Part shown: piece after piece, positions 459-16,140 of the stretch
How the letters are laid out: each line of letters starts with the position of its first letter
Numbering within the stretch: position 1 is the stretch's first letter
From: a virus
Virus record (IMG/VR): IMGVR_UViG_3300009788_000299
Span: 1-23,925 of that record
Length of the DNA stretch: 23,925 bases
Direction: 5' to 3' (one strand)
Position numbers and translations under genes: made by a program
The notes under the pieces: generated by a model
What the model saw: the letters and a program-made list of their open reading frames with translations, nothing else
Told to the model about the DNA's origin: nothing
Databases searched by the model: none

Positions 459-1271
459 ATGTCTAAAGTTAAATTATCTACAAAGGATCTAAATAAGATG
501 TGGACAGATATGCTCTCGCATAGGTCTATTATACGTGATAGTATGATAAAGTATGCGGCTGGGATGGAGATTGATGAATGCGCAGAGTGGGAGAATCCAT
601 TTAGGATTCATCTAGATAATTATGATGATTCTATTCTGGCTTTGCAGAGTAAGCTCACCAATAACCTTGTATTATCAATCATATATGAGAAGGCACCTAA
701 TCTTGATATAGATCCAGAGTTTGTTTTATCTAGGATGGTAGATGCACTAACAGATCAAGATACTGAGACGACAGTACATGATAAGCCATTAGTATTTGAT
801 GCACAGTGGGTGATTGATTACGTAGATAAGAATTATCTAAGGCAAAAAAACAAGTTGTGTCTTTTCCAGATGCTCACCAAAATCAATCACTTGGCTAGCA
901 ATATAACTTTTGATGTAAAGAACGCTACAGTCACATTGCCATTCTATACTGGCAAATGGTTCAGAAAATCATATATTGTTTCTAAGGGTACAGAAAAATT
1001 AATGCTTGAATTCGATAAGCTGATACAAACACATCTACTTGGTCGTGATCCTTTTGATGTCTCACCAAAAATATTCATTAAATATTTAGATGAGTGGTCT
1101 CGCACGAAGCCCTATGCACAATATATATTTAGAGAGATATTTTTAGATAATGAATATGATGCGGTTCGCTCCATAAAGATAGATAAGGGCAAATCAAAAA
1201 TAACTCTTAATTTCAGAGAGGAACAGGACGTACAAATGCTAATGGATACAATCAATCAAAACACAAATTAA
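459..1271 (+). CDS. hypothetical protein, 270 aa
   Basis: I do not recognise this protein. It is a soluble, mixed-charge product with no membrane segment, cysteine cluster or obvious catalytic motif. It has an aromatic-rich middle (FYTGKWFRKSYIV, about residues 166-178) and a mixed alpha/beta look. The start is fixed by a strong promoter whose -10 ends 6 nt upstream, giving a leaderless mRNA. It is the first gene after that promoter and may share a transcript with the endolysin gene at 1295, which has its own CCCC leader. No function is proposed. Confidence 0.75.
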   Translation: MSKVKLSTKDLNKMWTDMLSHRSIIRDSMIKYAAGMEIDECAEWENPFRIHLDNYDDSILALQSKLTNNLVLSIIYEKAPNLDIDPEFVLSRMVDALTDQDTETTVHDKPLVFDAQWVIDYVDKNYLRQKNKLCLFQMLTKINHLASNITFDVKNATVTLPFYTGKWFRKSYIVSKGTEKLMLEFDKLIQTHLLGRDPFDVSPKIFIKYLDEWSRTKPYAQYIFREIFLDNEYDAVRSIKIDKGKSKITLNFREEQDVQMLMDTINQNTN

Positions 1272-1282
1272 TATTTTATTTT

Positions 1283-1286
1283 CCCC
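1283..1286 (+). promoter_or_regulatory. U-rich/CCCC translation-leader element (type example)
   Basis: A CCCC run preceded by TTTTATTTT ends 8 nt before the ATG at 1295, in the place of a Shine-Dalgarno. Equivalent C runs precede the starts at 4313 (ccc 4301-4303, gap 9), 4749 (4737-4739, gap 9), 5155 (5143-5146, gap 8), 6417 (6404-6407, gap 9), 9143 (9131-9133, gap 9), 11601 (11589-11593, gap 7), 13597 (13586-13588, gap 8) and 14704 (14691-14693, gap 10). CC-only versions precede 6154 (gap 9), 10596 (gap 11) and 15490 (gap 10). Confidence 0.6.
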
Positions 1287-1294
1287 AATCTTTT

Positions 1295-2334
1295 ATGTTT
1301 CACCCATCTCGTAAGTTTAAGAAATGGTCTGGAAGAATAGCTTTAATAGCTACATCAGTAGGTATGACAATCAGTGTAATGTTACTAGCTCTACAGGTTC
1401 AGGCGATGTTCACACCAGAGGCTCAAAAGACCATGGATGAGTTATATGATCTTAAAAAGGCAAATAGCGTTACACTCCGCTCTCTAAATACGGTAAAGAT
1501 GAGAAAAGAGTTAGAGCTTGCAAAAATTGATAGTCAGCTTGCACTCATTCGTGAGATAAATTTACGTGCCGATATTTGTATCGACAAATTGCAACAGGGC
1601 AGCGAAGAGACTTGTGATATCGAAAAACTAGAAGCTAATAATTCTCATTCATCAGCGCCCCCACAGGCGGATAATCAGGATTTTCAGTAGAGCAATCAGT
1701 TGAAAGTTCTCCCTCACTTGAGGAACTGGTTGCTCAACGTCGAGAAAGACGTGAAGAGAACAATGCTACGACACCACAGCCTGGTACAGAAAAATTCTGT
1801 GTGGGTAGAGAATTCAAACATATGACACCAGAGTTCCTAGATAGGATCAAGCAGGACTATCCAGCATACTATGATATATATAAGGTTCAGCGCTTAAATG
1901 AAATGGCGTGTATGTGGGAAGGAAAGAAGTTCGAGCCATACACGGTGCGCATGCTTGCGATGCTTTATGCAGAGAACAATGCGTTAGATCCACGCATTAG
2001 GGGCGACTATGGTTTTGCGTTTGGTCTCTCGCAAGAACATATCTGCAATAGGGGTCTTAATATGTATTATCTAGGCATAGGTTATGGTGTAAAGCGCTAT
2101 TGTTATTCAAGGAATGGTATGACACCAACGCAGCAGGTAGAAAAGGAATTCCCAGAATTCTCTTTTAGTTGGACATCTCAATTCTATTATTTTAGCAACT
2201 TCATAAGTCCAAAAATAGATGAGGGTAAAACTCCTAATGCTATCGTAACATTATGGAATAGCAATGAGATTGGTCGGCAAGCAATAGTAGATAGGCATGA
2301 GCCATTTATAAAAGCAGTACTCAATATCAAATGA
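1295..2334 (+). CDS. membrane-anchored lytic transglycosylase-like endolysin, split by a -1 frameshift
   Basis: Two ORFs appear to form one gene. The first (1295-1690, 131 aa) has a basic N-terminus, one membrane segment (about residues 15-38), a coiled coil and a Ser/Pro linker, ending at TAG 1688-1690. The -1 frame is open from 1675 to 2334. It continues the linker with no start codon for over 100 nt and leads into a lysozyme-like domain: MLAMLYAENNALDP has the catalytic Glu context of soluble lytic transglycosylases, and GDYGFAFGLSQ is their conserved G-x-GL-Q segment. Joining at TTTT 1681-1684 gives about 346 residues: a signal-anchored muralytic enzyme acting outside the inner membrane. 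The break could be programmed slippage on T-TTT, a real mutation or a missing T in the assembly. If the second ORF is separate, it would start at GTG 1801 or ATG 1822, with no leader element. Confidence 0.65.
1679..1690 (+). other. candidate frameshift point in the endolysin gene
   Basis: The end of the first ORF reads GAT TTT CAG TAG. Slipping the Phe codon back one base on T-TTT (1681-1684) enters the open lysozyme frame two codons before the stop. It is not a canonical tandem slippery heptamer, because the following CAG cannot re-pair in the -1 frame. Confidence 0.4.
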
Positions 2335-2852
2335 ACCAAGATTGCGTACATGAATTGGCAACACTTAATAGGACTGTTGGTCGTCAGTTCGTTCTGTACC
2401 GCTATAAGGACTTAAGTGGAGTCAGTGGCGAGGGGACAGTCGCAGAAGGTATAGAATTTGCCAATGGACAGGTGGCGTTGCGATGGTACCCAAAGACGTA
2501 CAATTCCAAAAAAAGGGAGGCAAGGGAAGCTGGGTTCACCTTTAGGGGAAGCATATCTGTATTCCAGTCTATAGATGAGATAATAGCAATACATGGTCAT
2601 CATGGGAATACTAAGGTGCTATATCTCGATGAGATGGCTGGTGTACCATCTAATAAAAGGATCTATGATCCGCCTTGGGAAAATCGTAAGATAATGAAAT
2701 TTATTACCAAATTATTGAAAAAGTTAATACTAGATTATAGTGATAGTACTTTTAATAAGACAATGGGTTCCATAGTTGGAATGATAAGGGTCGCTGAAAA
2801 GAATGCATATCGTAGGGGCTGGAATGATTCTGTCCTTAAGAATAAGCTATAG
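2331..2852 (+). CDS. hypothetical phage protein, 173 aa
   Basis: The ATG overlaps the TGA of the endolysin gene (ATGA, 2331-2334), so translation is probably coupled. The first half (about residues 26-95) carries a pattern I associate with small conserved phage proteins: a DLSGVSGEGTVAEGIEF-like strand pair, ALRW, then SIDEIIAIHGHHG. The function of that group is unknown. The second half is helical and basic (KFITKLLKKLIL, then NAYRRGWND). No membrane segment is evident. Its position beside the endolysin may indicate lysis-related or simply late expression. Confidence 0.7.
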   Translation: MNQDCVHELATLNRTVGRQFVLYRYKDLSGVSGEGTVAEGIEFANGQVALRWYPKTYNSKKREAREAGFTFRGSISVFQSIDEIIAIHGHHGNTKVLYLDEMAGVPSNKRIYDPPWENRKIMKFITKLLKKLILDYSDSTFNKTMGSIVGMIRVAEKNAYRRGWNDSVLKNKL

Positions 2853-2858
2853 GCATTT

Positions 2859-3365
2859 ATGTATGACATAATTAGATCAGAGGTCAGAGAAGAATGTAGG
2901 AAAAGAGATAATTATCTTTGTGTTAATCCAAAATGCAAAGTTGCCAATGAGGTTAAAGTTTTAAACAATGGGAAAAAGGTATGGAAAAATAAGAGATGGA
3001 GCACAGTTTATGGAGTGTGGATTCAGAATGTACATTTGCATCATTGTATATTTAGATCTAGATATTTTGGTGAGGATAGGGATGAGCCTTGGAATCTCGC
3101 GTCACTTTGCAAAATGTGTCATAATAATCTGCATAATTTTGATATAGAATTAGAAAATATGTTTATTCATATCGCGTTAGAAAGAAGAGCAGCCGCTGGG
3201 ATGCCAGCCATAGATTATTCCAATATAGATATAAAGGATAAAAAGAAAAAGACGAATGCCTATAAGGAAAAATACAAAAGAGACAAGGAAAAGTTCATGG
3301 AAACGCATGATGGGCTTACGCCATTGCAATATAATTATCGTAGAAAAAAAAGCTTGAATTCTTAG
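2859..3365 (+). CDS. HNH endonuclease-like protein
   Basis: The product has 168 residues. CVNPKC near residue 21 and CKMCHNNLH near residue 86 form a likely zinc-binding pair. VHLHHCIF at about residues 54-61 supplies the first His of the HNH site, and PWNLASLC the central Asn. The C-terminus is lysine-rich and may bind DNA. HNH proteins in phages serve as homing nucleases or as packaging or anti-competitor nucleases; the context does not separate these. A weak promoter (ATGATT, 18 bp, GC-TATAGG at 2848-2853) ends 5 nt before the ATG, so expression may be independent of the upstream gene. Confidence 0.75.
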   Translation: MYDIIRSEVREECRKRDNYLCVNPKCKVANEVKVLNNGKKVWKNKRWSTVYGVWIQNVHLHHCIFRSRYFGEDRDEPWNLASLCKMCHNNLHNFDIELENMFIHIALERRAAAGMPAIDYSNIDIKDKKKKTNAYKEKYKRDKEKFMETHDGLTPLQYNYRRKKSLNS

Positions 3366-3382
3366 CCACCATCTGCTAACCT
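3354..3382 (+). promoter_or_regulatory. promoter, predicted leaderless start at 3389
   Basis: TTGAAT (3354-3359), a 17-bp spacer and TAACCT (3377-3382) with extended TGC upstream. Six nt follow before the ATG at 3389. The -10 is weak (TA---T), but both spacings match the other leaderless promoters here. Confidence 0.5.
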
Positions 3383-3388
3383 AAAAAT

Positions 3389-3868
3389 ATGACTACACAA
3401 TCAATAGCAGAAGATCTTAGTGCAGCACTCGAAAAAGCGGAGGCTTCCAAGGAAGCAGAAATAGCGCTTTTAGAATTTCTAGAGCGGACAGATGCATTCA
3501 AAAAATATACCATAGCCAAGCAGGAGGCTGAAATAGCAAAGAGCGAATCAGATACTGTTAAAGCGACTCTATTAGAGGATATGAAAGAAAATGATGAGAA
3601 GTCAATAAGCGCTGGTGGATATAGAATGCATACATCTGAGAAGGAGAATGTAACGGTAATGGATGATGAAAAGATGGAGAAATGGCTCAAGAAGAATAAA
3701 AAGTATGATGATGTATTTAAGATGGAACCAAAATTAGATAAGAAAGGTCTCAATAAATATATCCTTGATCTACGTAATGATAGGCAGATGCCAGATGTAG
3801 AAGATTGTGGTATAGAGATAGTTCCAAATATTTTTATCACAGTAAACAAGATAGACGATGAGCAATAG
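3389..3868 (+). CDS. Gp157-like coiled-coil phage protein
   Basis: The product has 159 residues. The N-terminal half is a charged coiled coil (repeated Ala/Glu/Lys, about residues 5-75). A small domain follows (SAGGYRMHTSEKENVTVMDD, then PKLDKKGLNKYILDL and a final beta segment). This helical-arm-plus-small-domain order resembles the siphovirus Gp157 family, often found near phage recombination genes; a RusA resolvase lies 4.4 kb downstream. The assignment rests on overall pattern only. A promoter-like element makes the start codon the predicted transcript end. The next gene overlaps by 11 nt. Confidence 0.5.
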   Translation: MTTQSIAEDLSAALEKAEASKEAEIALLEFLERTDAFKKYTIAKQEAEIAKSESDTVKATLLEDMKENDEKSISAGGYRMHTSEKENVTVMDDEKMEKWLKKNKKYDDVFKMEPKLDKKGLNKYILDLRNDRQMPDVEDCGIEIVPNIFITVNKIDDEQ

Positions 3869-4292
3869 CAAGACGTATTATATCCGTACTGATTTGGGAG
3901 AATTTAAAGTCTCTACAGATCCAGAAAAAATGCAAAATGCATTAGAAAATCCAAATGATAATCTCATCCAATTGGAAACACTGACTGGGTTCAAGTGCCA
4001 GATAAGGAATAGAGACATAAAGATATGTGGGCTTTTAGATAATTATATGTCTGTATTGGATAGCAATGAGAATGCAGATGGCGTGGCTCAATTATCTGGA
4101 ATAGCAGATTTAAAATTTTTCTTCTCTAGAGATAAAGGGGATATATCTATAGTATTCTTAGATGATAAAGGTGATGAATTAGCTAGAAAAAGATATGATA
4201 GTGAGGAATTTGTATCTAAGATTGTAAATGAATTGCCAAATGCAGTGTTAGATGCGATAATAGAGGAGCAAGATAGAAGATCATTCTCTTAA
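3858..4292 (+). CDS. hypothetical protein, 144 aa
   Basis: I do not recognise this protein. It is acidic, with beta-rich ends: the N-terminal KTYYIRTDLGEFKVSTDPE and later GDISIVFLDDKGDELARK look like sheet strands. It has no membrane segment, zinc ligands or nuclease motif. The start codon lies inside the end of the Gp157-like gene (11-nt overlap, different frame), so translational coupling is likely. Confidence 0.65.
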   Translation: MSNSKTYYIRTDLGEFKVSTDPEKMQNALENPNDNLIQLETLTGFKCQIRNRDIKICGLLDNYMSVLDSNENADGVAQLSGIADLKFFFSRDKGDISIVFLDDKGDELARKRYDSEEFVSKIVNELPNAVLDAIIEEQDRRSFS

Positions 4293-4312
4293 ATTAATTA
4301 CCCATTCGATTC

Positions 4313-4777
4313 ATGAGATCAAATTATTATTACAGCGATAGGGGGATAAAATTATTCCTCAAAGATGCAGATGGCAAAATGTACTTTAGGGCAATACGTA
4401 ATCCCGATTTATTGGACAGAAATTCTAGAGAAGAGCGTTGTATCACATATGATACAAGCGATGTGATGAACTTGCCGAATGATACGGTACTCGTATTGTA
4501 TGATATGCAAGAGGGAATACTATTATTCCAAGAGAAGTGGCGATTGTATTTTATAGATCCAGTAAATATATTAATAGATAAGCGGAATATCACTCTCCAA
4601 GTCCCTTATAATACTTTTAAGAGTATAGGAGGAGGTTATTCTTGGATGGATGTTCATGCAACAAATGTAACATGGGATTCCATTAAGGATAATATCTCAG
4701 CAGAACCAGTGCCAGATCTTATTTCTGACCAAATTTCCCTTTATAATCATGCCATCAAAGAAAAAAAAAGTTCCTAA
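4313..4777 (+). CDS. hypothetical protein, 154 aa
   Basis: I do not recognise this protein. It is rich in Asp and Tyr, with an N-terminal RSNYYYSDRG and alternating hydrophobic strands (VLVLYDMQEGILLFQEKWRL) suggesting a beta-rich fold. There is no signal peptide or catalytic motif. A CCC element ends 9 nt before the ATG. Its 3' end overlaps the next gene by 29 nt in another frame. Confidence 0.65.
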   Translation: MRSNYYYSDRGIKLFLKDADGKMYFRAIRNPDLLDRNSREERCITYDTSDVMNLPNDTVLVLYDMQEGILLFQEKWRLYFIDPVNILIDKRNITLQVPYNTFKSIGGGYSWMDVHATNVTWDSIKDNISAEPVPDLISDQISLYNHAIKEKKSS

Positions 4778-5150
4778 GAAGGATGTAAAGACCATAGGCA
4801 AGACGGAAAGAGATATTGATAAAACTATAAATGATATCCTAAATGCCGTTGATAGTGCATTCATGGATAAGCATTTTGATGATGTAGTTGCACTCGTATA
4901 TTACAAGGGCAGATTTAATGATGGTGAAGAAGCTAAGATAAAAACAGTTATGGGTCTCAGGAAGTCGGATAAGAATATAAGCGAGACTTCAGAAACATTA
5001 ATATTTATGTTTATGTTCCTATGTAAAAAATTAAACTTTAGAGAAGAGGCTGCAAAGAATTTTATTGCAGAACAAATATTAGCGGTTAACCCAGAAGCCA
5101 AAGACGTATCGGAGGCTCTTGACCAACTTTTAGATCCAAATTCCCCTTAA
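4749..5150 (+). CDS. hypothetical protein, 133 aa
   Basis: I do not recognise this protein. The N-terminus is very basic (SKKKKVPKKDVK) and the rest looks all-helical, with a hydrophobic helix LIFMFMFLCKKL near residues 84-95 that is amphipathic rather than clearly membrane-spanning. The gene starts within the previous one (29-nt overlap) and is also preceded by a TTTCCC leader ending 9 nt upstream. The basic tail would suit binding of nucleic acid or of an acidic partner, but nothing identifies one. Confidence 0.65.
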   Translation: MPSKKKKVPKKDVKTIGKTERDIDKTINDILNAVDSAFMDKHFDDVVALVYYKGRFNDGEEAKIKTVMGLRKSDKNISETSETLIFMFMFLCKKLNFREEAAKNFIAEQILAVNPEAKDVSEALDQLLDPNSP

Positions 5151-5154
5151 TATT

Positions 5155-5700: not shown

Positions 5701-5708
5701 TAGCCCAT

Positions 5709-6077
5709 ATGAAAAGGAGGCTAATTAAGCCAGTGCATTCAGTAGCATTAAAGCACGATAGGTATCGTGGTAGGATTGCATGGGATGCGACAGATCCAGA
5801 AAAAATAACTTTTACTATAGTTATTGCTAGCAAAGATAAACCTATAAAAACGAAAATGGCTATACCTATAATTTCAGATGGCATGGTCGGCATGTATGAT
5901 TTGGGCAGTTCTTCACAATTAGTCGTGGCAACAATCAATTTGGTAAAGAAGCATGAGGTTTTTAGTAATAATTTTTATCATCCAGATTTTCCAAAAGATG
6001 TTCAAAAATATATAAAAGATTTATTGAAAGATGATATATCTTTAAAGCAGCAATTGGAGCAAGCATTAAACGCTTGA
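5709..6077 (+). CDS. hypothetical protein, 122 aa
   Basis: I do not recognise this protein. A basic N-terminus (MKRRLIKPVHS) precedes beta-strand-like segments (GRIAWDAT, ITFTIVIASKD) and a helical C-terminus (DVQKYIKDLLKDD). It has no cysteines, membrane segment or known motif. The gene follows the Pro/Ala-rich gene by 8 nt and is the last of this block: a strong promoter begins just inside its stop codon region (TTGACT at 6074). Confidence 0.65.
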   Translation: MKRRLIKPVHSVALKHDRYRGRIAWDATDPEKITFTIVIASKDKPIKTKMAIPIISDGMVGMYDLGSSSQLVVATINLVKKHEVFSNNFYHPDFPKDVQKYIKDLLKDDISLKQQLEQALNA

Positions 6078-6102: not shown

Positions 6103-6153
6103 TTATAGAAGAACAAATAAATATTCTTCATTATATTTCTTTCCAACATATTT

Positions 6154-6345
6154 ATGTTCAAGAAAATTTTATACTCCATATTAGGCATTGTTTTATTCTT
6201 CACGAATATAGCATTCATATTATGGATAGGCATGCTAGCAGCAATAATGGTAGCAACTCTAATAGTAGGTAGGGTTATACAAGAATACCTATCGACTAAA
6301 GAGAAGAAACTTGAGGACATTATGACGAGCGCAATAGATTCGTAG
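6154..6345 (+). CDS. small two-helix membrane protein (63 aa)
   Basis: Two hydrophobic segments (about residues 5-21 and 23-42) lie close together, followed by a charged tail (QEYLSTKEKKLEDIM). Size and topology would fit a holin or a small membrane partner. The endolysin is nearly 4 kb upstream, whereas the next gene is a flotillin-like membrane protein, so a role with the flotillin is as plausible as a holin role. It is the first gene after the strong promoter at 6074. Its stop overlaps a 9-bp hairpin (6342-6364). Confidence 0.65.
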   Translation: MFKKILYSILGIVLFFTNIAFILWIGMLAAIMVATLIVGRVIQEYLSTKEKKLEDIMTSAIDS

Positions 6346-6364
6346 AAAAGTATTGCTTTTCTAC
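6342..6364 (+). terminator. AT-rich hairpin between membrane protein and flotillin genes
   Basis: GTAGAAAAG and CTTTTCTAC form a perfect 9-bp stem around a TATTG loop, overlapping the stop of the 63-aa gene. No U tract follows, so it may be an attenuator or processing site rather than a full terminator. TATTGCTTTT also occurs at 74-83 upstream of the HTH gene. Confidence 0.45.
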
Positions 6365-6416
6365 TTCATATATGATACTGTTCAGGAACTTTCGATTAAT
6401 TTTCCCCAAATCATAT

Positions 6417-7829
6417 ATGTTTTATATATTTATAGGACTAATAGCTATCGTAGCTATAATATTTATTGCCGCAATGATGTGGCGATCAATAGTACCGCAA
6501 GACGAGGTGCATATTGTTAATACTGCTAAAAAGTCTAAGCCATATGGAGACTCTAAAATAGTAGATATAGACAGCCAAGATGATGGAACAAAAGAATTAC
6601 AATCATATGGTAATGTGTATTATGAGTTCCCATATTGGTTGCCAAAACTCGGTGTTATTGTAAAGAAATTAACATTGAATGTTTTTCAGGTCAATCTCGA
6701 CACATACCCAGCATACGATAAGGACAAGGTTCCTTTCGTAGTAGATTTCAAGTCATGGTTTGTTATTTCAAATCCAATAGTAGCTGCAAAGCGTATTAAG
6801 GATATGGATGAGCTTGAGAGACAATTGCAAGAAATGCTTCAGGGTATTGTCCGTAAGACAATGGCTGGAAAGACAATTAAAGAAATCATGGAAAGCCGAT
6901 CAGAACTCAGAGAGATTTTTGTAAAAGAGGTTGGCGCTCAGTGCAAAGACTGGGGTGTAAAATTGAATTCTATAGAGTTCACAGATATCCGTGATATGGA
7001 GGGCGATGAGTTCAGTGTTATTGATGATATAAAGCAGGTAAAATCTTCTGCCATTGAGAAAGAAAGGCGTATCGCTGTTGCAGAAAATGATAGAGATTCA
7101 CGTCTATCAGAGATTCAAAGTAAAAGGGAGGCTGATCTTGAGGACGTTATTGCCAAAGAGAGCGTTGAGACTCGTGATGCGGACAGAACAAAGCAAGTCG
7201 GTATCGCAAAAGAGCATGCTTTACAAGAAATTAAAGAGCAAGCGAAGGTAACAACTGAAAAAGAAGTTGCAGTTAATCGTACAGAAAAAGTTGGTACTGC
7301 CGAGTACCAGAAAGAGGTGATCGTCGTTGAAGCTAACGCAAAGAAAGAATTCGAGATCATCGAATCAGAAGCACAGCAAAGAACAATGGAAATTGAGGCT
7401 GATGGTTATAAGGCAAAACAGATAAGAGAAGGAGAAGGTAATGCAGATAAAACAGAGAGAGAAGGTTTTGCCGAGGCTAGTGTCATACAAAAGAAAGGTG
7501 AAGCTCATGCTGTTGCCCTTGAGAAAGAGGCTGAAGCTAAGAAGAAACTCCAAGAGGCTCTTAAGGTTGAGTTGGGTGCTCTAGCTATTGAAGCACAGAA
7601 AGACGTTGGTATAGCTAATGCGAAGGCGCTTAGCGATGCGGATATCCGTATAATTTCTGGAGACGGTAATAGTGGTAAGATGGCTAAGTTCATTGAGGGG
7701 CTGGCTCAGAATTCAACTGTAATGGGCAATTTGCTCAGTAAGCTAGGAATTGAAGGCTTCGAATCTGCCGAAAATGACGAAGAAGATCCTAATAATAATG
7801 AGGATAGAATGGCAGATGAACAGGCTTAG
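6417..7829 (+). CDS. flotillin/SPFH (band 7)-like membrane protein
   Basis: The product has about 470 residues: one N-terminal membrane segment (about 2-22), an SPFH-like beta/alpha domain (about 45-210, with VVDFKSWFVISNP and MAGKTIKEIMESRSELR), a long Glu/Ala/Lys coiled coil (about 215-410) and an acidic Asn-rich tail. The membrane segment, SPFH domain and EA-rich coil in this order are those of flotillins, which form membrane-bound oligomeric scaffolds. I chose ATG 6417 because TTTTCCCCAAATC precedes it, nearly identical to the leader at 1295; the frame also extends back to ATG 6372 (485 aa). Structural phage gene sets rarely carry this family, so it may act on the host membrane. That role is inference. 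Confidence 0.8.
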   Translation: MFYIFIGLIAIVAIIFIAAMMWRSIVPQDEVHIVNTAKKSKPYGDSKIVDIDSQDDGTKELQSYGNVYYEFPYWLPKLGVIVKKLTLNVFQVNLDTYPAYDKDKVPFVVDFKSWFVISNPIVAAKRIKDMDELERQLQEMLQGIVRKTMAGKTIKEIMESRSELREIFVKEVGAQCKDWGVKLNSIEFTDIRDMEGDEFSVIDDIKQVKSSAIEKERRIAVAENDRDSRLSEIQSKREADLEDVIAKESVETRDADRTKQVGIAKEHALQEIKEQAKVTTEKEVAVNRTEKVGTAEYQKEVIVVEANAKKEFEIIESEAQQRTMEIEADGYKAKQIREGEGNADKTEREGFAEASVIQKKGEAHAVALEKEAEAKKKLQEALKVELGALAIEAQKDVGIANAKALSDADIRIISGDGNSGKMAKFIEGLAQNSTVMGNLLSKLGIEGFESAENDEEDPNNNEDRMADEQA

Positions 7830-7839
7830 TAAAATGGAT

Positions 7840-7865: not shown

Positions 7866-7893
7866 GAAATTATTTATATAACTACTCTCGATT

Positions 7894-8277
7894 ATGAAAA
7901 AAGAAGGATTCCCAGGACTAGGCGGAAAATCTGAAAGCATAGGTGATAAATTAAAAAAAGCAGCTAATGCTCCTGATATCAGAATGATGCCACATAAAAA
8001 TATGAATGTTAGAGAACACATGGCATTGCAAATGTATATCGGTATGTTAAAAGCTTCACAGTGGTCATATTTTAATGTTGGAGAAGTGTATGGAGAAGAG
8101 AGATACGCAGTAGATGCCGTAATAGGTGCGGATGCTCTTATACATACTTTGGGCAAAACACCAAAGCAAGTAATGGATAGGCATGAAGAGATTTCTGAGT
8201 ATATTTCTGAATTCGAAAAGGACAATGAAGAAGAGGAATCTGAAGAAGAAAAGACTGATGATGAAGAAGAAGCATAG
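7894..8277 (+). CDS. small protein with acidic tail matching the prohead protease
   Basis: The product has 127 residues. The globular part (about 1-105) has a Gly/Lys-rich start, then helical segments (MALQMYIGMLKASQW; YAVDAVIGADALIHTLG). The C-terminus is a Glu/Asp run, EEEESEEEKTDDEEEA, encoded by DNA identical over 44 nt, in the same frame, to part of the acidic region of the prohead protease gene. No family is recognised. Position between flotillin and RusA and the shared tail suggest either a link to capsid assembly, such as a scaffold or decoration partner, or recombination between low-complexity tails. Confidence 0.65.
   Translation: MKKEGFPGLGGKSESIGDKLKKAANAPDIRMMPHKNMNVREHMALQMYIGMLKASQWSYFNVGEVYGEERYAVDAVIGADALIHTLGKTPKQVMDRHEEISEYISEFEKDNEEEESEEEKTDDEEEA
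8227..8270 (+). repeat. 44-nt direct repeat, copy 1
   Basis: This stretch is identical to 10226-10269 and in the same reading frame, encoding EEEESEEEKTDDEE plus the first two bases of another Glu codon. The bases on both sides differ. Confidence 0.9.
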
Positions 8278-8302
8278 ATTTATATAGCACATAAAGTATA
8301 AT
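8275..8302 (+). promoter_or_regulatory. promoter, predicted leaderless GTG start at 8309
   Basis: TAGATT (8275-8280), a 16-bp spacer and a perfect TATAAT (8297-8302). Six nt follow before GTG 8309. The -35 is weak. An ATG at 8307 lies out of frame. Confidence 0.5.
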
Positions 8303-8308
8303 AATCAT

Positions 8309-8737
8309 GTGGTACAACAGATTAAAACATCGTTTTCAATAATCGGAGACCCTATAGGTAAGCCGAGAATGACACAGCGGGATGTTTGGGATAAGAGAAA
8401 GGCAGTAATGAAATATAGAGATTGGTGTGATAATGCCAGAGAGACTGCTGGGCTAGAGCCGATGCAAAAGATAGATGCTAATTCGTTTTTTGGTGTTATA
8501 GCATTTGCGCATTTTCGTATACCAAAATCATATTCCAAGAAAAAGAGAGAGGCTATCGCAGGGAAATTATGTACGGTTAAGCCAGATACAGATAATGTAT
8601 TAAAGGCTATTTGCGATGCGCTGTTTGAGAATGATGAAAGATTATCTATTATGCAGTGCTATAAATATTGGTCTTATGATGATGAGGAGCCGCGTGTAGA
8701 TATATTTTTTCTACAGAAAGACGATATGAAAATATAA
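8309..8737 (+). CDS. rusA: RusA-family Holliday junction resolvase
   Basis: The product has 142 residues, close to the usual RusA length. An early GDPIGKPRMTQRD segment (residues 12-24) and the central KPDTDNVLKAICDALFENDERL match the RusA pattern, where Asp residues bind the catalytic metal. The enzyme cuts four-way DNA junctions and in phages resolves recombination or replication intermediates before packaging. The frame begins at GTG 8309; no in-frame ATG precedes the conserved motif. A perfect TATAAT ends 6 nt upstream, making a leaderless GTG start likely. Its placement just ahead of the capsid genes is unusual. Confidence 0.85.
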   Translation: MVQQIKTSFSIIGDPIGKPRMTQRDVWDKRKAVMKYRDWCDNARETAGLEPMQKIDANSFFGVIAFAHFRIPKSYSKKKREAIAGKLCTVKPDTDNVLKAICDALFENDERLSIMQCYKYWSYDDEEPRVDIFFLQKDDMKI

Positions 8738-8742
8738 TATGG

Positions 8743-8771
8743 TCAAGTTTATTACGGCAAGTTCAACTTGA
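8743..8771 (+). repeat. inverted repeats, possible operator
   Basis: TCAAGTT (8743-8749) pairs with AACTTGA (8765-8771), and within it CAAGTT-C-AACTTG (8758-8770) is a compact palindrome. They lie in the 69-nt gap before the 8807 gene, upstream of an AT-rich promoter-like stretch with TATAAT at 8799-8804. The arrangement suits a repressor site, but no cognate regulator is identified. Confidence 0.4.
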
Positions 8772-8806
8772 TGACTTATGTTATTATATATGGTTCAATA
8801 TAATAT

Positions 8807-9112
8807 ATGAGTAATGATTCTAGCCAAAAAAAATATATAAATTTGTCAAAGATTGGCAAAAATGGTTTTAGAAAAGTCGTAGAAGATTCTAAGTTTTTGC
8901 GCATTACGTTACGTAAATCATCTGATTTTCATGGGGACACAATGACTCAAGTTCCTATAAGCAGATCGGATGGAATAATGGCTATTGTTGGTATAATTAA
9001 AGCCAATAAAGCAGAATGCCACGTCTCAGCAATCAGATTCCCAAAGTCCCAATTCTCTACAGAAAAAGCACAGAAATGGCTTGCAGAGAATTTTTCGATT
9101 AATAATAATTAA
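8807..9112 (+). CDS. hypothetical protein upstream of prohead protease, 101 aa
   Basis: I do not recognise this protein. It is basic and beta-rich, with a final IRFPKSQFSTEKAQKWLAEN segment. That K-x-W helix pattern appears to me similar to short segments in phage head-assembly proteins, but this is impression only. Its place directly before the protease suggests a head-related role. The start lacks both a CCC element and the 6-nt promoter spacing: TATAAT ends only 2 nt before the ATG. How it is initiated is unclear. Confidence 0.6.
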   Translation: MSNDSSQKKYINLSKIGKNGFRKVVEDSKFLRITLRKSSDFHGDTMTQVPISRSDGIMAIVGIIKANKAECHVSAIRFPKSQFSTEKAQKWLAENFSINNN

Positions 9113-9142
9113 TAATTTTTATTTATTCTTCCCGCTATTTAT

Positions 9143-10558
9143 ATGTCAAAAACAGTAAAGACACTCTCAAAGGCTGAGAGTGTAGACAAAAAAGGTGAGA
9201 AAATTGCGTATTATTCGCCGTTTCTCAGGATAGCCGAGGATGAACAAATCGTTGAGGGAATTGCTTCTTCTGAGGCTCTAGATTCATACGGCGATATTGT
9301 GCGCATCACGGCTATCAAAGAAGCACTCCCTGAATACATGGAGTTCGCTAATCTCCGAGCAATGCATTCAAACATTGCGGCAGGTATCATCACTGATACT
9401 AAAATTGATGATACAGAAAAAATATTTTATATCACCGCCAAAGTAGTCGATAAAGCAGAATGGGAAAAGGTAAAAGAGAAGGTCTATAAGGGATTCTCTA
9501 TAGGAGGAATTATCGAAGAGTGGGAGCCTATAATGGTAGAAGTAGAAGACAAAGATGGTAATAAATATGAGGTATTTGCTGGTGGTTATGAAATCACCAA
9601 AATAAAATTGGTAGAAATTTCACTTGTTGATAGACCAGCAAATCCAGATTCACTTATATCTAGTTATAAAGCGGCAAATCTAAAGAAGTTTGACACGAAA
9701 GATGGAGAGGTTGTTCAAAAAGAAGGCTTTGTGCCAAGTGTAGTTTTGCAGCCAGACTTGACTAGGATAGGGAAGGTGTTAGATACTAAATCACGCCTAT
9801 CTTCGATGAAAGCGCTAGCGAAGCGCAACCCATTATCCATTTTAGCCCCTCGCACTATGAGTAAAATTACTAAAGCTCAGTTAGAAAAAGTTGCAGATGA
9901 TGCGATTAAGGCAGCATATAAAGCTGCTGGAATCACTGACGACATTGATAACGAAGAGTTAAAGACTCTCAGTCGTGGCGAAATTCTTGAAGCTGCTAAG
10001 GAATTAGTGGCGGATGTTGTTACAGACATCGCGAAGTTCGTTAAGGCAGAAGGAGTCGAAAAACCTGAGGGTGATGATGACGCAGAAGAGGAATCTTCTA
10101 AAGAAGAAGAGACCGAAGAGACTGCTGATGAGGCATCCGAAGATGATAACACAGGCACTGAGGAGGAAAAAACTTCCGAAGAGGAAGAAAAATCCGAAGA
10201 AGAGGAATCCGAAGAAGAGGAATCCGAAGAAGAGGAATCTGAAGAAGAAAAGACTGATGATGAAGAAGAGGAAGAGGAGACTGAAGACGATAAAGAAGAA
10301 GCGGAGAAATCCGAAGATTCTAATGCTATCGTTGATGCTCTTAAGACTCTTGGAAAAACTATCAGTAAGGGCAATGCTGACACGCTTGCCGAGATCAAAA
10401 AATCTAATAAGGCTGTTGTTAATTCTGTTAACAAATTCGCAAAGAAAGCTGGCGGATCTGCTCAACATGACGAACAAGAGGTTAATGAAGACGACGAAGA
10501 GAAGAAAACGAAAAAGGGAGCGTTTTCAGAAGACCCTTGGGGTAAACGAGTAGCCTAG
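9143..10558 (+). CDS. prohead protease (XkdF-like, S78/HK97 family) with acidic scaffold-like C-terminus
   Basis: The product has 471 residues. Residues about 35-170 form a phage capsid-maturation protease domain: VEGIASSEALDSYGDIV, His75 in LRAMHSN, Ser119 in KGFSIGG, then LVEISLVDRPANPDS (Glu158, Asp163). These are the expected catalytic region and the typical end of the domain. Residues about 230-300 are helical. Residues about 310-395 are a Glu/Ser/Asp run with three 15-nt repeats (10196-10240), and the C-terminus is basic and helical. No separate scaffold gene is seen before the capsid gene, so the tail probably acts as a fused scaffold removed at maturation. TTCCC ends 9 nt before the ATG. 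Confidence 0.88.
   Translation: MSKTVKTLSKAESVDKKGEKIAYYSPFLRIAEDEQIVEGIASSEALDSYGDIVRITAIKEALPEYMEFANLRAMHSNIAAGIITDTKIDDTEKIFYITAKVVDKAEWEKVKEKVYKGFSIGGIIEEWEPIMVEVEDKDGNKYEVFAGGYEITKIKLVEISLVDRPANPDSLISSYKAANLKKFDTKDGEVVQKEGFVPSVVLQPDLTRIGKVLDTKSRLSSMKALAKRNPLSILAPRTMSKITKAQLEKVADDAIKAAYKAAGITDDIDNEELKTLSRGEILEAAKELVADVVTDIAKFVKAEGVEKPEGDDDAEEESSKEEETEETADEASEDDNTGTEEEKTSEEEEKSEEEESEEEESEEEESEEEKTDDEEEEEETEDDKEEAEKSEDSNAIVDALKTLGKTISKGNADTLAEIKKSNKAVVNSVNKFAKKAGGSAQHDEQEVNEDDEEKKTKKGAFSEDPWGKRVA
10196..10240 (+). repeat. tandem 15-nt repeat, three copies
   Basis: GAAGAAGAGGAATCC occurs three times, the last ending TCT, and encodes EEEES units in the acidic region of the prohead protease. 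Such arrays vary easily in copy number by slippage. Confidence 0.85.
10226..10269 (+). repeat. 44-nt direct repeat, copy 2
   Basis: This stretch is identical to 8227-8270, in frame within the prohead protease gene. It overlaps the last of the 15-nt repeats, so the array may have been the donor of copy 1. Confidence 0.9.
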
Positions 10559-10595
10559 TGTTAATATTTTATTTCGCTTTTTCCACTAAGAATTT

Positions 10596-11516: not shown

Positions 11517-11532
11517 GCAGAACATTGACGCT

Positions 11533-11556
11533 GAGGGGCGGCTTCCGCCGCCCTTC
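11533..11556 (+). terminator. GC-rich hairpin after major capsid gene
   Basis: GGGCGGC-TTCC-GCCGCCC (11536-11553) is a perfect 7-bp GC stem with a tetraloop, extendable to 10 bp including one G-T pair. TTCTCG follows rather than a U run. It is probably a partial terminator or a 3' stabilising hairpin for capsid mRNA. Confidence 0.65.
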
Positions 11557-11600
11557 TCGTGAGCGCTCCGCTCTACACTCAATTAATTCCCCCTATTAAT

Positions 11601-12338
11601 ATGTCAAAAGACACCGTACAAAAAGTAGATCTCGCCAAGGCATCAAAAGAAGAGTTGCTAGATTTTATTGAAAAATCTAATACTACTATCGACCCATCAT
11701 TATCGACACCTGTGCTTAGAGAGAAAGCCATGGAAATCCAGCAATCTTTTGTGGCTCTTAAGGACAGTGATGATCTAGATAGTAGGGCAAAAGCAGCTTC
11801 TGATGTCATTTTAGGCAATGACTCCGAAGAAACATCAAGTGACTCCGAAGAAACATCAAAAGATATTTCTAATATTAAGTCCACTATCAGTAAAGCATCT
11901 AATACAGATATAGATTCTACTAATGTGCAGCCACATGATGGAGAGTCCTCATCTATCAATAGCATAATTGATGAAAGTCGAACAAATAAGGATGGAAATC
12001 TAGATGAGACTATTGAAGAAAAAATCCTTAGAGAGCAGAAACAGAAGAAGGATGATTTTAGAACTGCGCGATTCGTAGTGGCAGCAGATGCAGAAATCCG
12101 TGAGTATCATATTGATGCTAAAGAGAAGCATAAGGCAAAAATTACAGACGTATGTTTCTTCTTGCTTAAAGGGACAAACCTTAATACTTTCACGACACCT
12201 TATACGAAAATTCCCGGTGTGCGTTTACGAAAGGAAACTCCATATAGGTCACTTGATTTAGAGTTAAAATACTTCCGTAGGAAACGAGGAATGTTTGGAG
12301 AATGTGCTTATCAAGGCATTGACAAGGTAGGAGCCTGA
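11601..12338 (+). CDS. neck-region protein with HeH/SAP-like N-terminus, Ser/Glu-rich linker
   Basis: The product has about 245 residues. Residues about 11-48 (ASKEELLDFIEKSNTTIDPS, then TPVLREKAMEI) resemble the short HeH/SAP-type helical motif common in phage neck and head proteins. A disordered Ser/Glu/Asp region follows, with a 21-nt tandem duplication (DSEETSS units), then a basic domain of about 95 residues ending the protein. The function is not recognised; position suggests a head completion or decoration protein. I chose ATG 11601, which has a CCCCC element 7 nt upstream, over the in-frame GTG at 11559 inside the spacer. Confidence 0.7.
   Translation: MSKDTVQKVDLAKASKEELLDFIEKSNTTIDPSLSTPVLREKAMEIQQSFVALKDSDDLDSRAKAASDVILGNDSEETSSDSEETSKDISNIKSTISKASNTDIDSTNVQPHDGESSSINSIIDESRTNKDGNLDETIEEKILREQKQKKDDFRTARFVVAADAEIREYHIDAKEKHKAKITDVCFFLLKGTNLNTFTTPYTKIPGVRLRKETPYRSLDLELKYFRRKRGMFGECAYQGIDKVGA
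11820..11861 (+). repeat. 21-nt tandem duplication
   Basis: Two adjacent copies of GACTCCGAAGAAACATCA plus a final codon (AGT, then AAA) encode DSEETSS-DSEETSK in the linker of the 11601 gene. Confidence 0.8.
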
Positions 12339-12344
12339 AAGAAG

Positions 12345-12373
12345 TAGTCATTTTTATATCATAGCTGTACAAT
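12345..12373 (+). promoter_or_regulatory. promoter, predicted leaderless start at 12380
   Basis: TAGTCA (12345-12350), a 17-bp spacer and TACAAT (12368-12373). Exactly 6 nt follow before ATG 12380. This argues against the in-frame GTG at 12374, which would lie at -6. Confidence 0.6.
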
Positions 12374-12379
12374 GTGCTT

Positions 12380-13585
12380 ATGCAGATAATAAGAGTACCA
12401 ACATACGACTTTAGAAAGATAAGCACTGGACAGCTACTCTCAACGAGGGCAGTAGAAGCAGCCACAACTCTAGAATTAGAGTCCGTGGTCGGCTTCTCTG
12501 TGGATGAGTTTGCAGTGCTTGGATATGATAGTGACAGAGAAAATAATGAAATAGCGGAGATATCAGCTATAGCATCACCTGATCTAACGGTAGGTGCATT
12601 GGCATATGAACATCAGCCTGAGATATTAGTATATCCTTGTCCATATGATCAAGTAGAGCTTTATAAGAAAAGATCTGGGGGTTCAATGCAGCTAATGGAA
12701 AGAAAGGATCTAGATGTAGACGGTGTATTTACGGTATTCTTTGATATAACTGCTGAGAAGGATGATACGTATGAATATAAATATAGAAATTCTGTGTCTG
12801 AAGATGCATCTACTGCTTCAACAGATAGGATGGAATATTTCAAATCTAAAGATCCATATATTACGCCAGCGCAAGTTATTCAATATATGAATAATCCATC
12901 TGGGATAGATGCTAATGATCCGAACATCATAATGCTTTGCAATGCCTATAGTGATCAACTAGACCATCTAGTTGGTCGTTATCAGAAAGAGAGGTTATGG
13001 TATCATTATGAGAAAGTAATTATCCCCATAGATCAAATAAATAGTACTAATAAAGCTAGGCTTAGAAATGTTAATGACAAGCCACTTCTAGAGGTGCTAG
13101 AGGCATATATAGTTGATCCAGATACAGGAAGAGTAACTAATATCGAGAAGCCATATGAGGTGGCTACAACTTCTGCTGCTTATCTACCAGGCTTGGCTGA
13201 TATATCCAATCTATATGACACAGATAGGCTTCACATGATGATTCGTGTAGGATTCTTTGAGTCTGATAATGTACCTCAGGATATAAGGGCGATGCTTTGT
13301 AATGCTGTTGCGATGCATATTCGTAAAGAAGATATGATGAGACGATATGTTCATCATTCTGGTCAATTAGTATCTGGTGAGGCAACTTCTGATGCATTTG
13401 TAAGATCAGTAACCGTAGGAAAATATACGAAAATGTACTTTGAATCAGCGGCTGAAAGTAATGGGCAGAGGGTGAACTCCAAGGCTCTAGAAACAGTTGG
13501 GGTTGCTTTTGATCAGGCTATGCTCCATAATTACAAAGACGTTTTACGACCATACAAACAAACGTTCTCGATGAGTTTTATTTAA
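12380..13585 (+). CDS. probable head-tail adaptor protein
   Basis: The product has about 401 residues. The N-terminal half is beta-rich (ATTLELESVVGFSVDEFAVLG, SPDLTVGALAYEH), and the middle has an interaction-like domain with strands and turns. The C-terminal helices (VPQDIRAMLCNAVAMHIRKEDMMRRYVHH) resemble the helical bundle of gp6/gp15-type adaptors that bind below the portal. It is larger than a usual adaptor (100-200 aa), so an extra domain is fused. Position after the capsid gene and before the head-closure gene supports the call; the portal itself is not in the window. Confidence 0.55.
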   Translation: MQIIRVPTYDFRKISTGQLLSTRAVEAATTLELESVVGFSVDEFAVLGYDSDRENNEIAEISAIASPDLTVGALAYEHQPEILVYPCPYDQVELYKKRSGGSMQLMERKDLDVDGVFTVFFDITAEKDDTYEYKYRNSVSEDASTASTDRMEYFKSKDPYITPAQVIQYMNNPSGIDANDPNIIMLCNAYSDQLDHLVGRYQKERLWYHYEKVIIPIDQINSTNKARLRNVNDKPLLEVLEAYIVDPDTGRVTNIEKPYEVATTSAAYLPGLADISNLYDTDRLHMMIRVGFFESDNVPQDIRAMLCNAVAMHIRKEDMMRRYVHHSGQLVSGEATSDAFVRSVTVGKYTKMYFESAAESNGQRVNSKALETVGVAFDQAMLHNYKDVLRPYKQTFSMSFI

Positions 13586-13596
13586 CCCTTATTAAG

Positions 13597-13911
13597 ATGC
13601 CAAAGACAGAAGCAGGAAAAAGCGTAAGAAAAAAGTTACCTACTGTGCTAGTAGAAGACATATCTATGCAGCCATATGTAACGACTGATATAAATGTTGT
13701 CGCTTATTTGAGTATGAAAGCGTATCATGTGCATAGTCTTGCAAGAGAAGAAGGCAGTAATCGTGCTGCATTTTGTTTTATGTTGCCAACACCAGAAGAG
13801 AAAAAAGAGCTACAACAGCATGTAAGAGACTATCACAATAACATTGGCAATTTCCGTTTGTATTCAGATTGCTGGAGGAATGCTAAGGGATTTGTCCACA
13901 ACGTTAAGTAG
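13597..13911 (+). CDS. small DUF5659-like protein
   Basis: The product has 104 residues. The segment from residue about 28 (VTTDINVVAYLSMKAYHVHSL), then AAFCFMLP, a charged helix and a final helix near residues 85-103 follows the pattern I associate with DUF5659: a short TxD-hAAYL strand-helix start, an F-x-F strand, and a C-terminal helix. The function of that family is unknown. It sits between the adaptor and head-closure genes, with a CCC element 8 nt before the ATG, so it is presumably co-transcribed with the adaptor. Confidence 0.6.
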   Translation: MPKTEAGKSVRKKLPTVLVEDISMQPYVTTDINVVAYLSMKAYHVHSLAREEGSNRAAFCFMLPTPEEKKELQQHVRDYHNNIGNFRLYSDCWRNAKGFVHNVK

Positions 13912-13919
13912 GCTATAAT
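13892..13919 (+). promoter_or_regulatory. promoter, predicted leaderless start at 13926
   Basis: TTGTCC (13892-13897), a 16-bp spacer and a perfect TATAAT (13914-13919) preceded by GC. Six nt follow before the ATG at 13926. It overlaps the end of the DUF5659-like gene. Confidence 0.7.
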
Positions 13920-13925
13920 GTCTAC

Positions 13926-14333
13926 ATGGAAGGACTAAATACTATACCAGCAGATGAGCTAAAGCACAAAGTAACCGTTCGCCATATCACTGCTGATGGT
14001 ACTCAGGATGGTTTTGGTCAATATGTTCCTACGACTGAAGATCATATAGAGAATTGCCATTTTGAATTTCACATATTTAATGATGAATCTGAGCGTGTAA
14101 AGAATAAGGAATATATTGTGGATTATGATTTACTATTAATATTACTGCCAACGGCATCAGTAAGACAAGGCGATAAGATCATGTTATTGGCTGATAGTGA
14201 TGGCAATGCGATATTCGAAGATGAAGAAGGTAATCCTATGACGATTACGAGAGTATTTAAAATAGCAGCAAATAAAGGAGTCCATCACATAGAGGCTTAC
14301 TGTAAGTTCCATTTGCCACAATTTAATAACTAA
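13926..14333 (+). CDS. head closure (head-tail joining) protein
   Basis: The product has 135 residues. An N-terminal IPADELKHKVTVRHITADGTQDGFGQ matches the start of head-tail joining proteins of the SPP1 gp16/HK97 gp7-like type. Beta strands follow (DYDLLLILL, GDKIMLLA, GNPMTITRVFKIAA) and a His-rich end, giving the small beta-barrel expected of a stopper. These proteins close the portal channel and connect to the tail. Size and position between adaptor and tail-completion genes fit. Its own promoter gives a predicted leaderless mRNA, and its stop overlaps the next start. Confidence 0.72.
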   Translation: MEGLNTIPADELKHKVTVRHITADGTQDGFGQYVPTTEDHIENCHFEFHIFNDESERVKNKEYIVDYDLLLILLPTASVRQGDKIMLLADSDGNAIFEDEEGNPMTITRVFKIAANKGVHHIEAYCKFHLPQFNN

Positions 14334-14701
14334 TGCTTTTAAAAACCGTTGCCATCATGCAGATGAATCCACGCTTTAAACCAGCGCTGAAGGGTGCTAT
14401 GCGCGAAACTTTAAAGACTGTTGGTATCGCATATAGAGAAAAAGCTAAGCGATTGACTACTGATGAAGGGCATGTTGTTACAGGAAGATTCAGAAATTCT
14501 ATCGGTAATATGAAATCTAATGATGGTATATTCGAATTCAGTAAAAACAATAAATACCTTGACGTTGGAACTAATGTACCTTACTCAATTTTACTAGAAA
14601 GTCGATATAGTCTATTGGTTAGATCTCTTGATTTAACAGTAGATTTGGCTAAAGCTAGGGCAGGAGTCGTTTTTGCAAAATATCTTAATTCCCATTCATA
14701 A
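14333..14701 (+). CDS. HK97 gp10-like tail completion/neck protein
   Basis: The product has 122 residues. A helical N-terminus (ALKGAMRETLKTVGIAYREKAKRLT) leads to GHVVTGRFRNSIG, then DVGTNVPYSILLE. The TGxLRxSI and VGTxxxYxxxxE motifs are hallmarks of the HK97 gp10/SPP1 gp16.1-like family at the head-tail interface. The start ATG 14333 overlaps the last base of the upstream TAA; a downstream ATG at 14357 would also preserve the domain. Confidence 0.75.
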   Translation: MLLKTVAIMQMNPRFKPALKGAMRETLKTVGIAYREKAKRLTTDEGHVVTGRFRNSIGNMKSNDGIFEFSKNNKYLDVGTNVPYSILLESRYSLLVRSLDLTVDLAKARAGVVFAKYLNSHS

Positions 14702-14703
14702 TT

Positions 14704-15111
14704 ATGGCGCAATTTGAAAGAATGCCAGAGATTGCCAAGTCAATTAGAACTTTCCTGCTTGATTATGCTGAACTAAAAGCTATAGTCGATACAAGGATTT
14801 TTTACTTTCGGACAGCCATGCCATCTGGCAAGGAACCAAAAGTACCGTTCATTTTCTTTCGTAGGGCTGGTGGGGTTTATGGGAGCTATCGTTATTATTT
14901 CTCTGTTAGAGCAAAGAATGCGACAGATCTCAGCAATCTCAGACGAATGGTTATACGCCGTTTGTTATCCCCCGTTAACCTAACTACAGAAGAAAATGTC
15001 CTAGAATCTCGTTTAGATGGGCAATTATCAGACGGGGGCGATGAAGGCACGGGTTGGTACGAGTCCAACTTCTACATTATATTCGAACTTCTCGAAGCTC
15101 AATATGGCTAA
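14704..15111 (+). CDS. tail terminator protein
   Basis: The product has 135 residues. A helical N-terminus (EIAKSIRTFLLDYAELKAIVDTRIFYFRTAMP) is followed by PFIFFRRAGG, strands and a C-terminal YESNFYIIFELLE. This matches the DUF3168/gpU-like tail terminator pattern, which caps the tail tube and joins it to the neck. A CCC element ends 10 nt before the ATG. The next gene starts inside its last codons. Confidence 0.68.
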   Translation: MAQFERMPEIAKSIRTFLLDYAELKAIVDTRIFYFRTAMPSGKEPKVPFIFFRRAGGVYGSYRYYFSVRAKNATDLSNLRRMVIRRLLSPVNLTTEENVLESRLDGQLSDGGDEGTGWYESNFYIIFELLEAQYG

Positions 15112-15457
15112 AAGAAAGAACTATCGAAAAACAAAGGCGTATAGTAGATCACCTAAAAAGCGTGGTGTAAAAACTGATGCAGTTACTCTTGAGCATCAGA
15201 GTAATGATACTAGCGAAGCTAAGGCTAAGCCAAAGGTCGTTCTCTCTGCTTCGGATAGCAAGTCGCTCAGCAATAGAACTTACCCATCCAATATCGTCTT
15301 AGTACGATATTCAAAGGGCAAAGATCACCTACAAGCTATAGATAAAATTTCTTTAAAAGAAATTATTCTAATACCCGGTGACACACGTCCAGTCCATATG
15401 GACAAGTCGTTAGTAGCTCAGCTTGAAAGCCTTGGCTTTGAATTCGAAATTATGTAG
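15104..15457 (+). CDS. basic protein of unknown function, 117 aa
   Basis: I do not recognise this protein. The N-terminus is strongly basic (AKRKNYRKTKAYSRSPKKRG). A Ser/Lys-rich linker follows, and then a small beta-rich domain (NIVLVRYSKGKDHLQ, KEIILIPGDTRPVHM) from about residue 60. I chose ATG 15104 rather than the longer frame from 15017, because the extra 29 residues lie within the tail-terminator gene, and ATGGCTAA makes an 8-nt overlap with its stop. It lies between tail terminator and tail tube, so a tail-related role is likely. Confidence 0.6.
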   Translation: MAKRKNYRKTKAYSRSPKKRGVKTDAVTLEHQSNDTSEAKAKPKVVLSASDSKSLSNRTYPSNIVLVRYSKGKDHLQAIDKISLKEIILIPGDTRPVHMDKSLVAQLESLGFEFEIM

Positions 15458-15489
15458 GGAATTTTTTAACCGTTTTTCCATCGTTCCCT

Positions 15490-16140
15490 ATGGCATACTA
15501 CAAATCAGGAAAAAAAGTAATCTCCCGCGATAATATTTTCGGGGGATCAGGTCGTCTAGTATATGCAGATAATGGCACGGCAGAACCTACTGATATCTCT
15601 GATATCTTAGATATTGCTACATCGCCATATGCTCTAGAGACTGGTTGGAATGATTTCGGAGGAACTGAAGGTGGCGCTACGCTGAGCCGTTCATATGAAA
15701 TGAATGAAATTTCTGTGGATCAGGTGGCTGGTGTTTTCGATAAAGAGGTTACTGACTGGACAATGTCTGTGCAAACAGAACTTGCCGAGACAACTCTTGA
15801 AAACATCCAGATCGCTTGGGTCGGTTCATCAGCCATCACGACTGTTACTGGAGTTCCATCTGGTTATCCAGTAGAACGAAAGTTAGGTCTTGGTGCTCCT
15901 ACCTGTCTGCCTGAGCGCATGATTGCTCTTATCGTAGATAAAAAGGAGGATTGTGCTGCTGGAGAATCACGAGTTCGCGCTCATGTTTTCTGGATTGCAC
16001 AAATAGATGGTGCAGAGTCTGCTCAACCTTACGTTAAGGGGGATAAGACTGTGGTACCAGTTACCTTCAACATTTTGCCTGATCCTTCAAAGGATGAAGG
16101 TGAAGAGTTCGGAATTATTCTTGACCAAGCTAACGCTTAA
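15490..16140 (+). CDS. major tail (tube) protein
   Basis: The product has 216 residues. The sequence is strand-rich with the tail-tube layout: ETGWNDFGGTEGGATLSRSYEMNEISVDQVAG near the start, DWTMSVQTELAETTLENIQIAW in the middle and KTVVPVTFNILPD near the end. ISVDQVAG followed by ETTLENI is a pattern I know from Siphoviridae tail tube proteins. Position before the G/GT chaperones is canonical. The leader is long and U-rich, with CC ending 10 nt before the ATG and a second CCC next to it. A strong intrinsic terminator follows the stop. Confidence 0.8.
   Translation: MAYYKSGKKVISRDNIFGGSGRLVYADNGTAEPTDISDILDIATSPYALETGWNDFGGTEGGATLSRSYEMNEISVDQVAGVFDKEVTDWTMSVQTELAETTLENIQIAWVGSSAITTVTGVPSGYPVERKLGLGAPTCLPERMIALIVDKKEDCAAGESRVRAHVFWIAQIDGAESAQPYVKGDKTVVPVTFNILPDPSKDEGEEFGIILDQANA

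Follow-up and report, generated by a model that had tools for sequence, protein, structure and literature searches.

We report that a short pyrimidine element, UUUCCC (TTTCCC in the DNA), precedes start codons in the virus record IMGVR_UViG_3300009788_000299 of IMG/VR, the whole of which (23,925 bases) was analysed here and is called the window. The window carries a tailed-phage module with genes for a head maturation protease, the major capsid protein (MCP), a tail tube, a tape measure and Dit. With a probability of roughly 0.78, judged from sequence comparisons, UUUCCC is a positioned initiation element that would take the place of the Shine-Dalgarno (SD) sequence and be used by an order of Patescibacteria, which are very small and uncultured bacteria, as well as by this phage. 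An earlier note on the same DNA had proposed an undescribed initiation signal of the phage and its host, and this proposal is supported by an order of 74 genomes, by one related phage and by the location of the element in transcribed 5' untranslated regions (5'UTRs).

The lack of SD sequences that the note had described was confirmed, since GGAG, GAGG, AGGA or AAGG occurred 3-12 nt before ATG at none of 33 mechanically called starts of the window. CCC at a gap of 7-11 nt preceded 9/32 window starts versus 4/595 non-start plus-strand ATGs (p=4.5e-10), and TTCC at the same gap 10/32 starts versus 7/595 non-start ATGs (p=4e-10); with purely mechanical starts, the CCC counts were 7/32 versus 6/598 (p=6e-7). 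De novo motif discovery by expectation maximization on the leaders, an analysis that the note had suggested, returned TTCC with a gap of 7-9 to the hexamer end and a z of 5.9 over shuffled leaders. At position -11, 53% of the window leaders have a C, G is nearly absent from -12 to -7, and the spacing between TTCC and ATG is tight, with N10 at six starts and N9 or N11 at four. Variants of UUUCCC found in the phage are UUCC, UUCCCC, UACCC and AACCC.

CC, CCC or CCCC ending 7-11 nt upstream of ATG was present, as claimed, at all 12 starts that had been listed, and the elements all lie on the plus strand. The sequence TTTTCCCC is found at 1279-1286, 8 nt before ATG 1295, and again at 6400-6407, 9 nt before ATG 6417 of an SPFH/Band 7 gene, and both leaders do contain the shared sequence TTTTCCCCAA. 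TTACCC (4298-4303) ends 9 nt before ATG 4313, TTTCCC (4734-4739, within the end of the previous gene) 9 nt before ATG 4749, TTCCCC (5141-5146, overlapping the final codons of the gene before it) 8 nt before ATG 5155, and TTTCC (6140-6144) 9 nt before ATG 6154. The head maturation protease gene (ATG 9143) is preceded at 9 nt by TTCCC (9129-9133), and the MCP gene (ATG 10596) at 11 nt by TTTTTCC (10578-10584). Further downstream, TTCCCCC (11587-11593) stands 7 nt before ATG 11601, TTTAACCC (13581-13588) 8 nt before ATG 13597, and TTCCC (14689-14693) 10 nt before ATG 14704, while the tail tube gene (ATG 15490) has TTTTTCC (15473-15479) at 10 nt and a second TTCCC 1 nt before its ATG. The positions of the listed starts were correct, but at 6417 and 11601 the signal-bearing starts are internal ATGs within longer open reading frames.

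The note had expected the signal to be enriched in the host, and the same element with the same spacing was indeed enriched in the order of Patescibacteria. When the 74 genomes of this order were searched in full for TTTCCC-N10(not G)-ATG, with the reversed pattern as control, 413 sites were obtained versus 45 reversed controls, and the motif outnumbered the control in 70/74 genomes. Outside the order the counts came closer to the control, with 121 sites versus 46 (ratio 2.6) in another 74 genomes from the class and 65 versus 62 (ratio 1.0) in 74 genomes of a phylum sample. In genome G488, TTCCC preceded 9/116 starts versus 18/2809 in the control (p=5e-7) and, with more sequence, 12/181 starts, 12.6 times the control (p=4e-9); the corresponding figures were 8/123 starts in G543 (p=8e-6) and 4/35 starts in G684 (p=2e-4). 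Pooled over genomes with UUCC-type 16S tails, TTTCCC was found at 25 starts versus 2.6 expected, and over those with CUCC-type tails at 7 versus 0.9. The gap in the hosts peaks at 9-11 nt, compared with TTCC-N10 in the phage. GGAG before host starts was depleted in the genomes with UUCC-type tails (odds ratio 0.46) and not enriched in those with CUCC-type tails (0.90). When a matrix trained on host sites was applied to the window, 12 starts scored higher than 95% of the non-start ATGs, and these were precisely the 12 listed genes; 11 of them also exceeded the 99th percentile. Since the training sites were picked by TTCCC, this scoring tests how spacing and flanks transfer and is not fully blind. 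With the same matrix, 0.4% of the starts in 52 related contigs exceeded their own 99th percentile.

The search for the host of the phage started from its relatives. The nearest capsid relative of the window, at 42% identity, is L114 (1-7920), whose genes are rich in in-frame TGA codons; these aligned to Gly at 38/76 residues and to Trp at 0, which indicates that L114 uses genetic code 25. This code is known from Gracilibacteria and Absconditabacteria, and the reading of TGA as Gly, which points to these groups, led us to examine Patescibacteria as hosts. A TGA-recoded member of the sampled class, G860, carries a capsid of the window phage's family, so that the class fits Gracilibacteria, and G691, a genome of the UUUCCC-using order, contains in its contig C32 (L424) a short capsid-gene remnant of the same family (about 26 aa, 65% identical to that of phage contig L168). 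Most probably, the window phage infects the UUUCCC-using order. The order itself would probably be Peribacterales, class Gracilibacteria, because genome G562 is close to a 1.24-Mb contig with a degraded anti-SD and because Peribacter riflensis is listed among organisms lacking CCUCC (PMC10783764).

Several observations weigh against these readings. The exact hexamer is found on only a minority of host starts, which suggests that UUUCCC is one of several initiation routes. In G681, leaders (L297, L336-L340) carry TTAA or TTAAT 9-12 nt before ATG, and TTAAT was found at 17/100 starts versus 7/1867 in the control (p=7e-18), resembling the element of phage L168; the presence of this motif in the UUUCCC slot implies that the reader must vary or that the slot tolerates several motifs of low structure. 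Comparison of the window DNA with the 74 genomes of the order gave short repeat-like matches at two places only, with no spacer and no provirus, so the proposed link between phage and host would consist of relatedness and the shared signal. Finally, the name Peribacterales is one that we infer for the order.

Among related phages the signal is narrowly distributed. No close relatives of the window phage were found with exact capsid peptides; a scan of IMG/VR for TTTTCCCC-ATG patterns gave 21 matches, 0 of them in contigs enriched for the signal; and a capsid-alignment search of genome contigs gave 7 matches, none named Patescibacteria. Across about 240 contigs with capsids related to that of the window, the frequency of CCC before starts matched the background (93/3690 starts versus 1416/47161 control ATGs), with the exception of L202 and L203. 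These two contigs, which ranked directly after the window, represent one virus that is syntenic with it and has a tail tube 45% identical; their leaders carry TAACCC or AAACCC, and the de novo signal is weak (z=2.3). Another relative with synteny to the window, L168, carries TTCTAATTT instead, an element that differs in sequence but sits at almost the same place; TAATT occurs in 9/19 of its leaders versus 0.5 expected, and the de novo search gave a z of 4.5. Related phages thus hold different elements at nearly one position. In L168 we also observed two tandem major-capsid-like paralogues, at 6210-7139 and 7925-8905.

Promoter boxes in the host order distinguish two classes of start. The distance from -10 hexamers to ATG has its peak at 6-9 nt, which marks leaderless genes, and the window has starts of the same class at 459 and 13926, each preceded on the plus strand at 6 nt by a -10-like box, namely the extended box TGCTATACT at 444-452 and GGCTATAAT at 13911-13919. 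Among host first genes with UUCCC or UCCCC, 13/35 have a -10 box at an upstream distance of 18-45 nt, most often 23-32 nt, versus 72/534 of the others (p=7e-4), and 1/35 have one in the leaderless slot versus 89/534 (p=0.016). Moreover, the element is found equally often at closely spaced internal genes (21/298) and at first genes (31/490) of the hosts; of the operon-internal placement noted earlier, its occurrence before internal genes was seen, but it is not confined to them. These results indicate that the element lies in the 5'UTR or the intergenic transcript and is not a promoter. The simplest reading, from its location in the SD slot and the absence of SD sequences, is that it would act in translation initiation. 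The window Cs do fall at -12/-11, where the TATAAT of the leaderless class would begin, as would be expected if UUUCCC were a -10-like box used by an alternative or phage polymerase to make leaderless transcripts. However, this is very improbable given the normal -10 box upstream of the element in host first genes, with almost none in the leaderless slot, and the frequency of the element before packed internal genes, on which grounds it was rejected; in addition, sites in the phage extend into the ends of the genes before them. Even less credit can be given to an artefact of composition, in which unstructured leaders poor in G, as they are in both phage and hosts, would contain runs of C by chance. 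The position is sharp, the reversed-pattern control gave 45 sites versus 413, and the signal is taxonomically restricted; CCCTTT, and TTTCCC at other gaps, were tested for an enrichment of equal size, and none was seen.

As to what reads UUUCCC, the earlier note had offered S1, another rRNA site or a host factor; S1-domain proteins are indeed present and pairing with a 16S trailer is possible, but none of these readers was proven and the covariation expected for the trailer failed. The anti-SD of the order's 16S rRNA is mostly degraded, to CUUCC, UUUCC or UCUCC. Some Patescibacteria have 16S 3' tails without CCUCC, of the form ...GGAACA-CUUCC-UUACCAGGGAA, or with UUUCC, or with UCUCC...GGGAG. 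Within the order of G488 the anti-SD drifts between CCUCC, CUUCC, UUUCC and UCUCC, and the trailer follows (GGAA or GGAG) so that a hairpin of 4 bp is kept.

One candidate reader is a relocated anti-SD, in which UUUCCC would pair with GGGAA(A) just 3' of the degraded anti-SD in a retained trailer (GGAACA-CUUCC-UUACCA-GGGAA). GGGAAA is unique in the 16S-plus-trailer of G655, directly after UUACCA, GGGAA follows the anti-SD in the UUCC-type genomes, and UUACCAGGGA is conserved in most of the listed 16S tails of the order, with variable bases after it. The predicted duplex of 5-6 bp has -7 to -8 kcal/mol, versus -2.7 for the same leaders on a canonical tail, and the position on the mRNA is the SD slot. 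On the other hand, genomes with a GGGAG trailer keep UUUCCC (7 versus 0.9) and do not show enrichment of CUCCC (2 versus 1.7 expected), although a U-G pair would be tolerable, and U is not favoured as the base following UUCCC (C 18, A 12, U 7, G 2), so that pairing does not extend into AGGGAA. A compensatory change between leader and trailer was tested across genomes and none was seen, the tails of G681 and G460 lack a complement of their own leader motif, and the trailer is normally trimmed, its GGAR being already accounted for by the hairpin with the anti-SD. We therefore regard pairing with the trailer as doubtful, and favour contact with a protein, bS1 or a platform protein, for which the odds are somewhat better yet still short of even. 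In particular, bS1 or another ribosomal protein may bind the pyrimidine tract, U-rich and then C-rich, as in S1-dependent initiation. S1-domain proteins were found in 14/14 Patescibacteria genomes tested, several with multiple S1 repeats, and the element consists of pyrimidines only, without a constraint on the base that follows. Nevertheless, S1 is known to bind A/U-rich sequence with loose placement, while here the spacing stays in a range of about 3 nt and the Cs are required, and G681, with its TTAAT leaders, has multi-domain S1 proteins as well.

If UUUCCC acts in initiation, phage and host genes would have at least two modes of start: a leaderless one, in which a -10 promoter box lies 6-9 nt upstream of AUG, and a second one, on leadered mRNAs or at operon-internal genes, with UUUCCC about 10 nt before AUG. 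In the latter, the element would occupy the SD position, about -15 to -9 from AUG, and the initiating 30S subunit would hold the mRNA on its platform through UUUCCC rather than by an SD:anti-SD helix. A wider scenario, which we put forward tentatively and at slightly under even odds, is that the anti-SD has been silenced in this order, that starts are recognised via UUUCCC by the GGGAA trailer or a dedicated protein, and that phages adopted the element; as sister lineages use TTAAT, start recognition would have diversified within one class.

A search of the literature available to us found no earlier report of a spaced UUUCCC start signal, and the publications consulted on Gracilibacteria- or Patescibacteria-linked phages did not mention SD or ribosome-binding sites. 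The element resembles the SD in being short, with fixed spacing and in the same leader slot, but a U/C run cannot pair with CCUCC; the phage lacks SD sequences, and the hosts, with their mostly degraded anti-SD, show no enrichment of them. In vitro selection with E. coli ribosomes has yielded C-rich ribosome-binding sites that can drive initiation without an SD, and 16S rRNA pairing was proposed for them; they came from a selected library, showed no position dependence and had poor activity in E. coli in vivo (Barendt 2012, PMC3310771). A C-rich leader before AUG is also found here, but as a natural spaced hexamer with a sharp gap peak at 9-11, conserved in a bacterial order and a phage. Likewise, S1-dependent pyrimidine or U-rich leaders share with our case a pyrimidine tract in an SD-less leader and the presence of S1-domain proteins, and differ from it in the tight spacing and required Cs seen here. 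Bacteroidota, a phylum without SD, has A-rich or Kozak-like starts (PMC6847099) and is thus SD-less as well, but with an A bias near AUG, whereas here UUUCCC lies at about -15 to -9. Organisms without CCUCC have been described (Amin 2018, PMC6107228; Estrada 2024, PMC10783764), the latter paper listing the SD-scarce Peribacter riflensis and SR1. The anti-SD degradation and scarcity of SDs that related Patescibacteria show recall our order; in the available portions of these papers, Amin (PMC6107228) describes no variant SD that would fit a variant anti-SD, and a UUUCCC leader signal is reported by neither. The leaderless TA-led starts of Zheng 2011 (PMC3160421) correspond to the second start class here, with TATACT or TATAAT 6-9 nt before ATG, whereas the UUUCCC class is leadered.

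How start codons are chosen in the many bacteria without SD is an open question, for which the element offers a concrete spaced sequence. It can be tested experimentally, since it occurs in a defined order whose anti-SDs are partly degraded and is shared by a phage. The element could also help to identify the uncultured hosts of phages, and its variation between lineages could improve the prediction of gene starts in Patescibacteria.

Two further features of the window were observed. An identical stretch of 44 bases occurs in two of its genes (8227-8270 and 10226-10269) and encodes an acidic EEEESEEEKTDDEEE segment. At 6372-7829 the phage encodes an SPFH/Band 7 membrane protein, which has homologues in Vibrio Thalassavirus phages with 37% identity.

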